The notes under the pieces are model-generated. The model was not told the origin of the DNA. It was given only the letters and a program-made list of their open reading frames with translations, and made no database searches. From NCBI RefSeq assembly GCF_008642355.1, contig NZ_CP029193.1, forward strand, positions 1,326,001-1,390,000: 64,000 nucleotides of DNA. Direction: 5' to 3'. The DNA is from Streptomyces venezuelae (GTDB taxonomy: Bacteria > Actinomycetota > Actinomycetes > Streptomycetales > Streptomycetaceae). Below are positions 6,049 to 24,235 of this stretch, piece by piece (the stretch's first letter is position 1; the number at the start of each line of letters is the position of its first letter). A program made the translations under genes and the position numbers.

Positions 6049-6119
6049 GGTGGAGTGGCCGAGAGGCGAGGCAACGGCCTGCAAAGCCGTCTACACGGGT
6101 TCAAATCCCGTCTCCACCT
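6049..6119 (+). tRNA. tRNA-Cys (GCA)
   Basis: A complete 71-nt cloverleaf. Acceptor arms GGTGGAG and CTCCACC pair; the anticodon in CTGCAAA is GCA; the T loop is GTTCAAA. CCA is not encoded. Confidence 0.96.
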
Positions 6120-6123
6120 CCAA

Positions 6124-20445: not shown

Positions 20446-21282
20446 TCAGAACGCCGCGACGACGGCGCCGTCGTACTTCTCGTCGATGAACTTCTTGACC
20501 TCGGGCGAGGTGAGGAGCTTGGCGAGCTTCTTCACGCGCGGGTCGTTCTCGTCGCCCTTCTTCACGGCGAGGAAGTTGCCGTAGGGGTTGCCCTTGGCGG
20601 GCTCGGCGACGATGGCGTCCTTGGCGGGGCTGAGGGCGGGCTTGGCCTCCAGCGCGTAGTTGCCGTTGATCACCGCGGCGTCGACATCGCTCAGGGTGCG
20701 GGGCACCGTGGGGGCTTCGAGCTCCTTGAACTGGATGTTCTTGGGGTTCTTGGCGATGTCCTTGGGGGTGGCCTCGTAACCGACGCCCTTCTTGAGCTCG
20801 ATGATGCCGTTGTCCGCGAGCAGCTTGAGCGCGCGGGCCTCGTTGGTGGTGTCGTTGGGGATGGCGATCGTGGCGCCCTTCTCCAGCTCACCGAGTTTCT
20901 TGACCTTCTTCGAGTACACGCCGAGCGGCTCCAGGTGAACCGTGGCTCCCGGGACGGGCACGATGTCGGTGCCGCGCTTCTTGTTGAAGTCGTCCAGGTA
21001 CGGCTTGTGCTGGAAGTAGTTGGCGAAGACCTCGCCCTGCTCCACGGCCGTATTCGGCGTGATGTAGTCGGTGAATTCCTTCACCTCGAGGTCGAGGCCG
21101 GCCTTCTTGGCGAGGTTCTTCTGGACGTAGTCCAGGATCTCGCCCTGCGGCGTCGGCGTCGCGGCGACGACGAGCGGGCCGTCCTTGTCGCCGGAGCCCT
21201 TGTCGGAGCCGCAGGCGGAGAGCCCGAGGGTGAGGGCTCCGGCGGCGAGGACAGCGGTGGTGATCTTGGCGGTGTTACGCAC
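20446..21282 (-). CDS. metQ: methionine-binding lipoprotein, first copy
   Basis: A 278-residue MetQ-type binding protein with lipobox LSAC (Cys24). It delivers methionine to MetNI at the outer face of the membrane. The pocket segments match its neighbour closely: FTDYITPNTAV, FQHKPYLDDFN, PNDTTNEARALKLL, NGNYALEA, GNPYGNFLAVKKGDENDPRVKKLAKLL. The ATG at 21282 has GAGAAAGG upstream. It follows metI by 69 bp on the same strand. Confidence 0.94.
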   Translation of the reverse strand: MRNTAKITTAVLAAGALTLGLSACGSDKGSGDKDGPLVVAATPTPQGEILDYVQKNLAKKAGLDLEVKEFTDYITPNTAVEQGEVFANYFQHKPYLDDFNKKRGTDIVPVPGATVHLEPLGVYSKKVKKLGELEKGATIAIPNDTTNEARALKLLADNGIIELKKGVGYEATPKDIAKNPKNIQFKELEAPTVPRTLSDVDAAVINGNYALEAKPALSPAKDAIVAEPAKGNPYGNFLAVKKGDENDPRVKKLAKLLTSPEVKKFIDEKYDGAVVAAF

Positions 21283-21351: not shown

Positions 21352-22098
21352 TCAGCCGGTCTTGGTGACCGATTCGGCGGCGGCGGTGCCGGGCAGTACG
21401 CCGCGCAGCGGCCGGAACAGGAGCAGCGGGGCCGAGCCGCCGCCGCGCTTGTGCAGGCGGCGGGCCGCGTAGTCGCCGACGAACTGGATGACCGAGATGA
21501 CCACGGCGAGGATCGCCACGGTGATCCACATCAGCTCGGTCTCGAAGCGCTGGTAGCCGTAGCGCAGGGCGAGGTCGCCGAGGCCGCCGCCGCCGACCGT
21601 GCCCGCCATGGCGGAGTAGCCGATGAGCGCGACGATCGTGGTGGTGGCGCCCGAGATCAGCGAGGGCAGCGACTCGGGTACGAGGACCTTGCGCACGACG
21701 GTCCAGGTGGAGCCGCCCATCGACTGCACGGCCTCGACGAGCCCGCCGTCGACCTCACGAATGGAGGTCTCGACCAGGCGCGCGAAGAACGGGATGGCGC
21801 CGACGGCGAGCGGCACGAGGGCGGCCTCACGGCCGATCGTGGTTCCGGTGATCCAGCGCGTGAAGCCCATGAGGGCGACCATCAGGATGATGAAGGGCAT
21901 CGAGCGGGCGATGTTCACGATCTGCCCGATGACCTTGTTGAGGAAGGCGTTCTGAAGCAGTCCGCCGCGCTCGGTGAGGACGAGCAGGACGCCGAGCGGC
22001 AGTCCGGCGACGACGGCTATCAGCGTCGACCAGCCCACCATGTAGAGGGTGTCCCAACAGGCCTGCTCCAGCAGGGGCTGCATCTCCGACCAGGTCAC
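21352..22098 (-). CDS. metI: methionine ABC transporter permease
   Basis: A 248-residue inner-membrane permease. About five hydrophobic helices are seen. The EAA coupling loop is EVDGGLVEAVQSMGGSTWTV, which contacts MetN. The C-terminal ~30 residues after the last helix (RRLHKRGGG...) are longer than in E. coli MetI. The ATG overlaps the metN stop by four bases (ATGA), so translation is coupled. Confidence 0.94.
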   Translation of the reverse strand: MTWSEMQPLLEQACWDTLYMVGWSTLIAVVAGLPLGVLLVLTERGGLLQNAFLNKVIGQIVNIARSMPFIILMVALMGFTRWITGTTIGREAALVPLAVGAIPFFARLVETSIREVDGGLVEAVQSMGGSTWTVVRKVLVPESLPSLISGATTTIVALIGYSAMAGTVGGGGLGDLALRYGYQRFETELMWITVAILAVVISVIQFVGDYAARRLHKRGGGSAPLLLFRPLRGVLPGTAAAESVTKTG

Positions 22099-23153
22099 TT
22101 GGCACCTTCCTTCACGAGCAGCGTCGCGTCCTTCGGCGTGGTTGCGGCGTCTTCGCCCGCGATGTCGACCTGGAGGCCCTGCTCGCGCAGGAAGCCGATG
22201 GGGACGACGTTCTCCTCGAAGCGGCCCGGCAGCTCGATGCGCATGCGGCCGACCTGCTTGCCCGCGACGGTGTCCATCGCGGCGCCGAGGATCGAGATGT
22301 CGATGTTGTACGTGCGTGACAGCTGGGAGATGACCGGCTGGGTCGCGGCCTCCCCGTGGAAGGTCACGTCGACGACGGTGCGGTCGGCGCCGGTGGCGTC
22401 GCCGCTGACGGGGAAGAGCGCGGCGGCGAGCTCGGAGCCGGGGGTGGCGAGGAGTTCGCTGACGGTGCCGGACTCGATGATCTGCCCGCGCTCCATGAGG
22501 GCGGCGGAGTCGCAGACGCTCTTGACGACGTCCATCTCGTGCGTGATGAGCAGGACGGTCAGGCCGAGCTGCTGGTTGAGGTCGCGCAGGAGCTGGAGGA
22601 TGGAGCGGGTGGTCTCGGGGTCGAGGGCGCTGGTCGCCTCGTCGGAGAGGAGCACCTTCGGGTCACCGGCGAGGGCGCGGGCGATGCCGACGCGCTGCTT
22701 CTGGCCGCCGGAGAGCTGAGCCGGGTAGGACTTGGCCTTGTCGGCGAGACCGACCAGGTCGAGGAGTTCGAGGGCCTTGCGGGAGCGCTCCTGGCCGGAC
22801 AGGCCGAGGATCTCCAGGGGCAGCTCGACGTTGTCCTGCACGGTGCGCGAGGACAGCAGGTTGAAGTGCTGGAAGACCATGCCGATGCGGCTGCGGGCCT
22901 TGCGCAGTTCCTTGCCGGCGCGCGGGCCGCGGCCCGCGAGCGCGGTGAGGTCCTGGCCTGCGACGGTCACGGTGCCGGAGGTGGGGCGCTCCAGGAGGTT
23001 GACGCAGCGGATCAGGGAGGACTTGCCGGCGCCGGACTGGCCGATGACGCCGTACACCTCGCCCTCGCGGACGTGCAGGTCGACTCCGTCGAGGGCGGTT
23101 ACTTCACGACCGCGTGAGCGGTAGACCTTGGTGAGGCCGGAAGTGGTGATCAC
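22095..23153 (-). CDS. metN: methionine ABC transporter ATP-binding protein
   Basis: A 352-residue ATPase. Walker A GQSGAGKSS, Q-loop VFQHFNLL, signature LSGGQKQR, Walker B VLLSDEATSALDPE and H-loop LLITHE are intact. The C-terminal NIL domain (about 265-345) is where methionine binds and blocks transport in E. coli MetN, so feedback inhibition is likely here too. The start is GTG 23153. A 237-nt leader with an upstream ORF separates it from its promoter. Confidence 0.95.
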   Translation of the reverse strand: MITTSGLTKVYRSRGREVTALDGVDLHVREGEVYGVIGQSGAGKSSLIRCVNLLERPTSGTVTVAGQDLTALAGRGPRAGKELRKARSRIGMVFQHFNLLSSRTVQDNVELPLEILGLSGQERSRKALELLDLVGLADKAKSYPAQLSGGQKQRVGIARALAGDPKVLLSDEATSALDPETTRSILQLLRDLNQQLGLTVLLITHEMDVVKSVCDSAALMERGQIIESGTVSELLATPGSELAAALFPVSGDATGADRTVVDVTFHGEAATQPVISQLSRTYNIDISILGAAMDTVAGKQVGRMRIELPGRFEENVVPIGFLREQGLQVDIAGEDAATTPKDATLLVKEGAK

Positions 23154-23390
23154 AGGATTTCCGTCACTGTCGAGTGCGCGGCGCGGGGTGGCCGGGCACG
23201 GGGCATTCGTTCGGAACGCGGCACGGTTCTCGCGGTGGTGGTGCGGTGGAACCGGAGGACGTGTGCGCGGGGCGGGCTCGCTTCCTACGTCGACTTGTCG
23301 ACTCCGTTGAGTGCGACGGTTGCGTCGGTCAGGAGCGCGGCACAGCGGCTTCGCTTCGGGGCGCGAGGCTCTTCAGTGGTGCGGGGGCCC

Positions 23391-23477
23391 TCAGAAGGCG
23401 CACATTCGACACATACAACGAGCACCGGGCGTCGTGATCGCCTCGGTCGCAGGGGTGCGGCTGCTCGTCGTGGTCAT
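23391..23477 (-). CDS. Cys/Met leader peptide upstream of metN
   Basis: A 28-residue ORF, ATG at 23477, ending ...GARCMCRMCAF and stop. Five of the last eight residues are Cys or Met (codons 23400-23417). Two Cys codons are TGT and the Arg between is CGA, both rare in such GC-rich DNA. The ATG sits 7 bases after a -10 box, so the mRNA is probably leaderless. By analogy with Cys-rich attenuator ORFs known upstream of sulfur genes in mycobacteria, ribosome stalling on Cys/Met shortage could control metNIQ. No experiment on this one is known to me. Confidence 0.65.
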   Translation of the reverse strand: MTTTSSRTPATEAITTPGARCMCRMCAF

Positions 23478-23484
23478 GGGCCCA

Positions 23485-23512
23485 AGTAAAACACGCGTGT
23501 GGTCGCTGTCCA
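23485..23512 (-). promoter_or_regulatory. promoter of the leader ORF and metNIQ
   Basis: On the minus strand: -35 TGGACA (23512-23507), 16-bp spacer, -10 TTTACT (23490-23485). Transcription would start at or next to the leader ORF's ATG. Confidence 0.6.
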
Positions 23513-23543
23513 CCACCGCTGTCCGGTATACGGACAGCGGTGG
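23513..23543 (-). terminator. terminator of the HAD phosphatase gene
   Basis: A perfect 13-bp stem, 23513-23525 with 23531-23543, loop GTATA. It lies 29 bp after the HAD stop and directly abuts the -35 box of the met promoter, insulating it. Confidence 0.8.
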
Positions 23544-23572
23544 GACGGCGCCGAACGCCGGGGGCGGACCGG

Positions 23573-24235
23573 TCAATCGGCGATGACGATCTCCACGCCG
23601 CCCTCCGTGGCCTGCGCGGACACGGCGGAGAGGTCCTTGACGACGACGTCGGCGAGGCCGGCGGAGAGCTCGGACGCCTGGTGGGTTGTGGTCAACGCCA
23701 CGGTCTTCATGCCCGCGGCCCGGCCCGCCTGCAGACCAGCCGGGGCGTCCTCGAAGACGACGCAGCGGGCGGGGTCGACGCCGAGTTTGTCGGCGGCGAG
23801 GAGGAAGGGCTCCGGGTCGGGCTTGCCGCGCGTGATGTCGTCGGCGGCGATGACGAGGCCGGGGCGCAGGCCGACCTCGGCGAGCCGGGCCTCGCCCAGG
23901 GCGCGGGTCGCGGACGTCACGACGGCCCAGCGGTCGGCGGGCAGGGACTCCAGGAGCTCACGGGTGCCGGGAAGCAGGACGACCCCGCCCGCGACGTCGG
24001 AGACCTCCAGCTCCTCGATGCGGGCGACGGCCTCGGCGATCTTCTCCGGCGGCAGCAGGTCGGCGGCGATCTCGGCGGCGGGGCGCCCGTGCAGCTCGAC
24101 CGCGGCGAACTCCTCGGCGGTGATCCCGTACTCCTGCGCCCACCGTGACCAGCAGCGGTACACCGACTCCAGGGAGGAGACGAGGGTGCCGTCGTTGTCG
24201 AACAGGAGCGCGTCAGCATGGATCTTCATGACCAT
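23573..24235 (-). CDS. HAD-superfamily phosphatase (beta-phosphoglucomutase-like)
   Basis: A 220-residue HAD subfamily IA hydrolase. Motif I is LLFDNDGTLVSS, with Asn where most members have Asp-x-Asp (D-N-D is still the normal DxD). Motif II is VVTSATR, motif III GKPDPEPFLLAA, motif IV VVFEDAPAGLQAG. A helical cap lies between motifs I and II. It probably dephosphorylates a sugar phosphate, as in GPP- or 2-deoxyglucose-6-phosphatases. The start could be ATG 24235 or 24229; neither has a strong ribosome site. Confidence 0.88.
   Translation of the reverse strand: MVMKIHADALLFDNDGTLVSSLESVYRCWSRWAQEYGITAEEFAAVELHGRPAAEIAADLLPPEKIAEAVARIEELEVSDVAGGVVLLPGTRELLESLPADRWAVVTSATRALGEARLAEVGLRPGLVIAADDITRGKPDPEPFLLAADKLGVDPARCVVFEDAPAGLQAGRAAGMKTVALTTTHQASELSAGLADVVVKDLSAVSAQATEGGVEIVIAD

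Follow-up and report, generated by a model that had tools for sequence, protein, structure and literature searches.

The metNIQ operon in the 64,000-nucleotide stretch of the Streptomyces venezuelae genome analysed here (the window) is likely to be controlled by a translated, leaderless leader peptide, an orthologue of metL, that would act through ribosome stalling and the RNA downstream of it. Such a leader would probably switch metNIQ on under Cys/Met shortage. The ORF is already known; what is added here is the mixed reading of Cys and Met and the architecture of the RNA.

The leader ORF and its locus

The locus lies on the minus strand and consists, in this order, of a HAD phosphatase gene, a palindrome, a promoter, the 28-codon leader ORF, a spacer of 237 nt and the genes metN (22095..23153, an ABC ATPase with a NIL domain and a GTG start at 23153), metI (21352..22098, a permease) and metQ (20446..21282, an NlpA lipoprotein). 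The leader ORF (MTTTSSRTPATEAITTPGARCMCRMCAF, 23391..23477) runs from ATG to TGA. An earlier note on this DNA had pointed to it and to its distance from metN, with coordinates and codons that proved correct. The Cys-Met-Cys-Arg-Met-Cys run with which it let the peptide end is present but not terminal, the residues AF following it (CMCRMC-AF). The rarity that it claimed for TGT and CGA is borne out in 25 long ORFs of the window with high GC3, where TGT makes up 9 of 90 Cys codons and CGA 21 of 801 Arg codons. The window also holds a tRNA-Cys gene (6049-6122), part of a Gly-Cys-Val-Val-Val tRNA cluster.

An extended -10-like element (TGTTTTACT, 23485..23493, minus strand) stands 7 nt 5' of the leader ATG, the distance given earlier for a -10 box. 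Its hexamer, TTTACT (23490-23485), departs from a consensus -10 in having no A at position 2, yet is conserved. A consensus promoter scan of 23100-23700 returned no promoter-like sites. Across 149 selected loci the element is spaced 6 or 7 nt from the ATG, as a leaderless start would have it; the only start mapped is that of S. lividans metL, which is leaderless according to the RNA-seq data of PMC8079986.

That paper (2021) lists metL (SLIV_29928) of S. lividans TK24 in its Table 4 as an attenuator before metNIQ, with termination called "unclear", and the earlier statement that no description was known is therefore wrong. The window leader shares with metL its orthologous place directly before metNIQ, the type of its peptide and, probably, a leaderless start, and the S. 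lividans peptide of 29 residues is encoded exactly in three of our loci (L102, L112 and L116). In its treatment of metL, PMC8079986 stresses Met and Thr, leaves Cys unnamed and offers no comparison of conservation or RNA. Among the best matches in the open-access literature we found no description of Cys sensing by metL or of a conserved RNA; the main text of PMC8269248 (S. clavuligerus) mentions neither metN nor methionine, and PMC1262725, in its account of methionine operons of Actinobacteria, reports no conserved RNA structures before them.

Conservation among relatives

DNA upstream of metN was collected from relatives, and the metN start was located in 183 of 185 loci, in seven of them (L243, L244, L246, L247 and L249-L251) by weak matches only. 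A strict search of the 154 Streptomycetaceae metN loci, which asked for the promoter with an ATG at 6-7 nt and applied no composition filter, gave exactly one match in 149. Among the five loci lacking the strict promoter, four (L003, L017, L217 and L224) still have a variant -10 followed by an ORF with a Cys/Met end, and the fifth (L183) keeps the Cys/Met tail with no recognised start. In length the 149 ORFs span 10-70 codons, and all of them carry both Cys and Met within the last 12 residues, as against 5 of 56 other ATG ORFs (20-40 codons) in the same DNA. Given the yield of the strict search and this difference in tails, the leader ORF is not a chance occurrence, and the alignment of leaders across metN loci that the earlier note had proposed finds the Cys and Met codons conserved. 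At least three Cys plus Met are present in 146 of the 149, Thr in 21.

An earlier selection of loci, in which 149 of 154 candidates passed the strict promoter score, had required both Met and Arg within the tail; composition counts made on it are therefore biased, among them the means of 3.07 Cys and 2.37 Met over the last 15 residues; the composition count held when it was redone with no such filter. Nor are the loci independent events, since some share an identical leader (e.g., L001 and L117); thinning of near-identical leaders left 133 of the 149.

A looser search recovered the promoter, the ATG and the core CGA/C-ATG in 152 of the 154 loci. The core is in frame in all 152, at distances from the ATG that take 12 values between 66 and 135 nt, and because insertions and deletions keep the frame, this is strong evidence of translation from the leader ATG. 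Outside the family, inspection by eye of 29 loci picked out seven (L016, L151-L154, L157 and L236) in which the DNA upstream of metN holds an ORF end rich in Cys/Met. No clear one was seen in the other 22, which include four searched for the core pattern only (L018, L056, L069 and L076), one with 49 nt of upstream DNA (L248) and the seven with weakly placed metN starts. The ORFs of L152-L154, which belong to another family, are different, longer and rich in Cys/Met, and end in MGGMPSMR. The leader is real and conserved, and we consider it very probably a working leader peptide.

RNA folds within and downstream of the ORF

The RNA of the ORF appears to be folded. In helix P1, the 5' strand (ACGACGAGC, codons 3-5, 23463..23471, minus strand) pairs with a 3' strand that includes the first Cys codon (GCTCGTTGT, codons 19-21, 23415..23423), and between them lies hairpin P1b (ACCGaGGCG / CGCCCGGT, 23424..23447). 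These were examined in an alignment (A1) of 71 of 73 distinct ORF starts, from which 47 of the 149 ORFs, mostly Kitasatospora-type, were left out as lacking the TEA...PG pattern. P1 is paired in 94.8% of cells of A1 and is also found in the single-sequence fold; P1b is paired in 99.6%, with six of its eight pairs invariant and one changed on both sides in three sequences; the three ORF helices combined reach 96.0% over the 71 sequences. They contain 27 two-sided changed cells, as against 7.9 in shuffles that keep shared ancestry in (0 of 500 as high). However, 18 of the 27 belong to a single P1 pair and may go back to one change that was inherited, and there are about as many pair types as in the shuffles (11 vs 10.7). 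This P1 pair (14-56) is GC in 51, AU in 18 and unpaired in two of the sequences, a change of Ser5 AGC to Asn AAC accompanying one of Ala GCT to Val GTT. The fold of the window ORF (-30.9 kcal/mol, z -2.75, with one shuffle in 200 doing as well) contains the P1/P1b helices and a few outer pairs. RNAalifold on A1 recovered P1b and not P1, and in a ranking of column pairs the signal was swamped by shared ancestry.

Downstream, the motif GAGGGCC (23386..23392, minus strand) overlaps the stop codon and is present in 115 of 149 loci, and in 137 the distance between GAGG and the CGA codon is 16-18 nt, including loci in which the stop has moved. It is followed by hairpin H2 (CTCGCGCCCCGAAGCGA, 23351..23367, minus strand): in 107 of 149 loci CGCGCCCCGAAGCG occurs no more than 90 nt from the stop, and the loop motif CCCCGAAGCG in 112, its exact form being missing from 37. 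The block from CGAATG to H2 is also present in Actinomadura rubrisoli (L016) and, with one extra C in the loop, in L151. The 16-mer of H2 has matches in 28 of 296 genomes of the class; three of the 29 places listed are away from metN, and these were rejected, being long open frames with no leader context. In one locus (L099) a repeat-like hairpin (GGGGGTCCCCCC...GTGGGGGAG) breaks the 5' arm of H2. A small hairpin at the stop was likewise discarded, as RNAalifold shows it only in a 38-sequence MCA subset and in none of three others.

The linker that follows is rich in C (C 0.452, G 0.280; C exceeds G in 138 of 139), a feature that is non-specific, some metN upstream regions with no leader found being C-rich as well. 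RNA onto which Rho loads tends to be C-rich and G-poor. On the minus strand of the linker, CCGTGCCGCGTTCCG (23212-23226) is a 15-base string identical to the SenR site predicted for S. coelicolor metN (PMC4991794).

Directly 5' of the metN ribosome site stands hairpin H3 (GTGCcCGGC / GCCGcGCAC, 23174..23199, minus strand), with its arms at 23199-23191 and 23182-23174. In an alignment (A2) of 51 of 80 Streptomyces-type metN-proximal segments, hand-picked for variety, 87.9% of its cells are paired, and both two-sided changed cells (38 vs 10.9) and further pair types (15 vs 11.0) exceed shuffles that keep shared ancestry in (0 of 500 as high in each case). At one inner position 37 of the 51 sequences are unpaired, sliding the arms by -2 leaves some signal (21 cells), and RNAalifold on the 80 segments missed H3. 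The stem that the earlier note proposed as part of an attenuator is thus real and covaries; its role as the attenuator is putative, and in predicted ensembles the leader pairs little with the metN start. Between H3 and the metN start lies a very conserved string (TCGACAGTGACGGA, 23160..23173, minus strand) with one exact copy in the S. venezuelae genome; with up to two mismatches it gives 120 sites, as against 24 for the reversed control, and no regulon was drawn from them. Comparison among relatives establishes the ORF, its frame, its Cys and Met codons and the RNA helices.

Control codons and the amino acids probably sensed

The control core reads TGT CGA ATG TGC (23400..23411, minus strand) and is built around a rare Arg codon that is nearly invariant: before the last Met, CGA is used in 145 of 149 loci and CGC in four. 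The codon preceding this Arg is TGT in 104 loci, TGC in 9, CGT in 20 and others in the rest, and the one following the last Met is TGT in 66, TGC in 64 and CGC in 19. Our guess is that the fixed CGA could be a slow codon acting as a pause. Thr codons lie mainly in the 5' half of the ORF, within the strand forming P1. The core string TGYCGAATGYGY has three further places in the S. venezuelae genome, at none of which a start codon plus leader-like ORF was seen. At C1:60051 of the same genome (L284), the core string TGCCGAATGTGC encodes CRMC in a frame that is bounded by stops on both sides and lacks a start codon.

Cys-codon leaders before sulfur genes are reportedly known from mycobacteria, where Canestrari in 2020 is said to have described polycysteine leaderless sORFs. 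The window leader differs from them in its target, a Met importer, and has no long consecutive run of Cys: its own run is CMCRMC, and in relatives the Cys are mostly flanked by Met and Arg, although some Kitasatospora-type leaders contain CC or CCC. It resembles the Ms5788A-type (NF042934) leaders in being short, with Cys codons near the end, and in preceding sulfur genes, but it mixes Met with Cys and has another sequence and RNA; a search of the NCBIfam models, NF042933 and NF042934 included, gave no family for either the window peptide or the S. lividans metL peptide. With the LEU element before leuA (PMC1262725) it shares an actinobacterial leader ORF with extra RNA folds, whereas in the window leader no pairing between control codons and ribosome site is supported. 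The S. venezuelae genome also holds a small ORF of the Cys type (MHRQADLTKRRAVDLCRVAAMLCRTF, L330, ~C1:3834125, minus strand) with TACGAT-N7-ATG at its start and a rhodanese gene behind it; it scores 29.7 with NF042934 (cut-off 27) and 43.7 with NF042933, under the cut-off of 45.

In Streptomyces the sulfur of methionine can be converted to cysteine, and a shortage of either amino acid could thus call for import of Met. A further reading of the leader, which we put forward tentatively as possible, is a sensor of both Cys- and Met-tRNA with the invariant CGA as a slow pause and a new terminator-less switch (GAGGGCC and H2, then H3) that would predate the split of Streptomycetaceae and Actinomadura. 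Alternatively, Cys alone may be sensed, with the Met codons serving RNA pairing or spacing and metNIQ forming part of a cysteine regulon. Cys does outnumber Met in the tail (last 15 residues), a Cys-type leader exists in the same genome before the rhodanese gene, and in S. coelicolor the RNAs of metN (5.24x), metI (3.51x) and metQ (2.26x) rise after H2O2 alongside those of Cys-synthesis genes, according to PMC4991794. However, Met is kept in all 149 tails chosen with no composition filter, and the leader-like ORFs of the other family (L152-L154) add Met, not Cys, at their end, and we think sensing of Cys alone rather unlikely.

The output step

For the translated leader acting through stalling, the following course can be proposed. 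The ribosome would start at the 5' AUG and open the folded RNA of the ORF (P1/P1b); when charged Cys- or Met-tRNA is short, it would slow at the Cys and Met codons around the rare CGA, a stall that we infer from the conservation of these codons. Its position at the ORF end could then set the folding or exposure of GAGGGCC, H2, the C-rich linker and H3, with the outcome that metNIQ mRNA is completed and translated. This last step is our guess.

Attenuation of metNIQ, as the earlier note had it, stands as regards a leaderless-type ORF with conserved Cys/Met codons, but no terminator-like site was found: a scan of 23100-23700 gave no sites, and so did not reveal between ORF and metN a U-tailed terminator such as a classical attenuator of the terminator type has. 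An Rfam search of the window gave five tRNA hits at threshold and nothing else, no SAM or other riboswitch among them; for 22900-23700 there were two weak hits below threshold, on the other strand, and for the leader region no family at threshold.

Control could instead act on translation, the ORF RNA pairing with the metN ribosome site and stalling freeing it. The ORF tail and the metN start region can form a helix of 12 bp (TGTCGA-at-GTGCGC with GCGCAC-TCGACA), found in full in 24 of 80 Streptomyces-type loci and in its six-base part in 65, and this duplex (-21.29) surpasses that with a shuffled partner (-15.63). It was rejected as swapped partners do equally well (-21.32; own better in 49 of 80), which leaves no covarying pairing of leader and ribosome site. 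Moreover, 28 Kitasatospora-type loci have no such pairing beyond shuffles, and in ensembles predicted for the 80 loci most pairing of the start region is internal or with the first 31 nt of metN (0.40), the rest of the leader accounting for ~0.17. We hold translational control of this kind to be unlikely. A pairing of the ORF core with the linker (e.g., GCGCACA, 23262-23268) was also set aside: the own best helix reaches 17.09 and that of other cores 16.13, the own core doing better in 91 of 135 (z 0.59 vs shuffled linkers), and the pairing, good for MCA and MCG tails and poor for MCH and MCD tails, is only suggestive.

The rise of metNIQ RNA after peroxide in S. coelicolor (PMC4991794) implies that control can act at the level of RNA. 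We weakly favour control of transcription, with termination in the C-rich linker that is Rho-dependent or otherwise unusual, over a mechanism that frees the ribosome site.

It is also conceivable that the block at the ORF end (CGAATG, GAGGGCC and H2) is a regulatory RNA or protein site in its own right, with translation secondary. The CGA-GAGG spacing is retained when the stop moves and the loop of H2 is nearly fixed, but the strict keeping of the frame, the enrichment of Cys and Met and the lack of an Rfam family at threshold make this improbable.

Upstream of the promoter lies a palindrome (CTGTCCGTATACCGGACAG, CTGTCCG-N5-CGGACAG, 23519..23537), about 51 nt ahead of the leader ATG, which occurs once in exact form in the S. 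venezuelae genome; TGTCC-N5..10-GGACA is found in 85 of 149 loci, and perfect repeats of at least 7 bp occur in 70, with a median centre of -51 (5th-95th percentile -90 to -49). From its sequence it is possibly an operator-like site, or else a hairpin that terminates the HAD gene upstream. Control by a DNA-binding protein, bound to the palindrome or to a SenR-like site, with the leader playing a minor part, is the least probable reading, for although the palindrome keeps its place in many loci and PMC4991794 reports for S. coelicolor a predicted SenR site upstream of metN and a loss of the RNA rise in an HbpS-SenS-SenR mutant, it would leave unexplained why the ORF and its codons are conserved.

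Implications

The leader peptide acting through stalling and downstream RNA is favoured by the recovery of the ORF in 149 of 154 loci, the frame kept in 152 of 152, the CGA of 145 of 149, the helices and fold of the ORF, the covariation of H3, GAGGGCC and H2 shared with A. rubrisoli, the excess of C over G in the linker, the leaderless start of metL and the RNA rise in S. coelicolor. It is disfavoured by the lack of a terminator, the non-specific nature of the C-rich linker, the ORF covariation being mostly in one pair, the SenR dependence in S. coelicolor and the exact H2 loop missing in 37 of 149 loci. The metN leader lends itself to testing whether a single leader can read two linked amino acids, and through point changes in its fixed CGA and conserved, terminator-less RNA the output step of actinobacterial leaders would become open to test.
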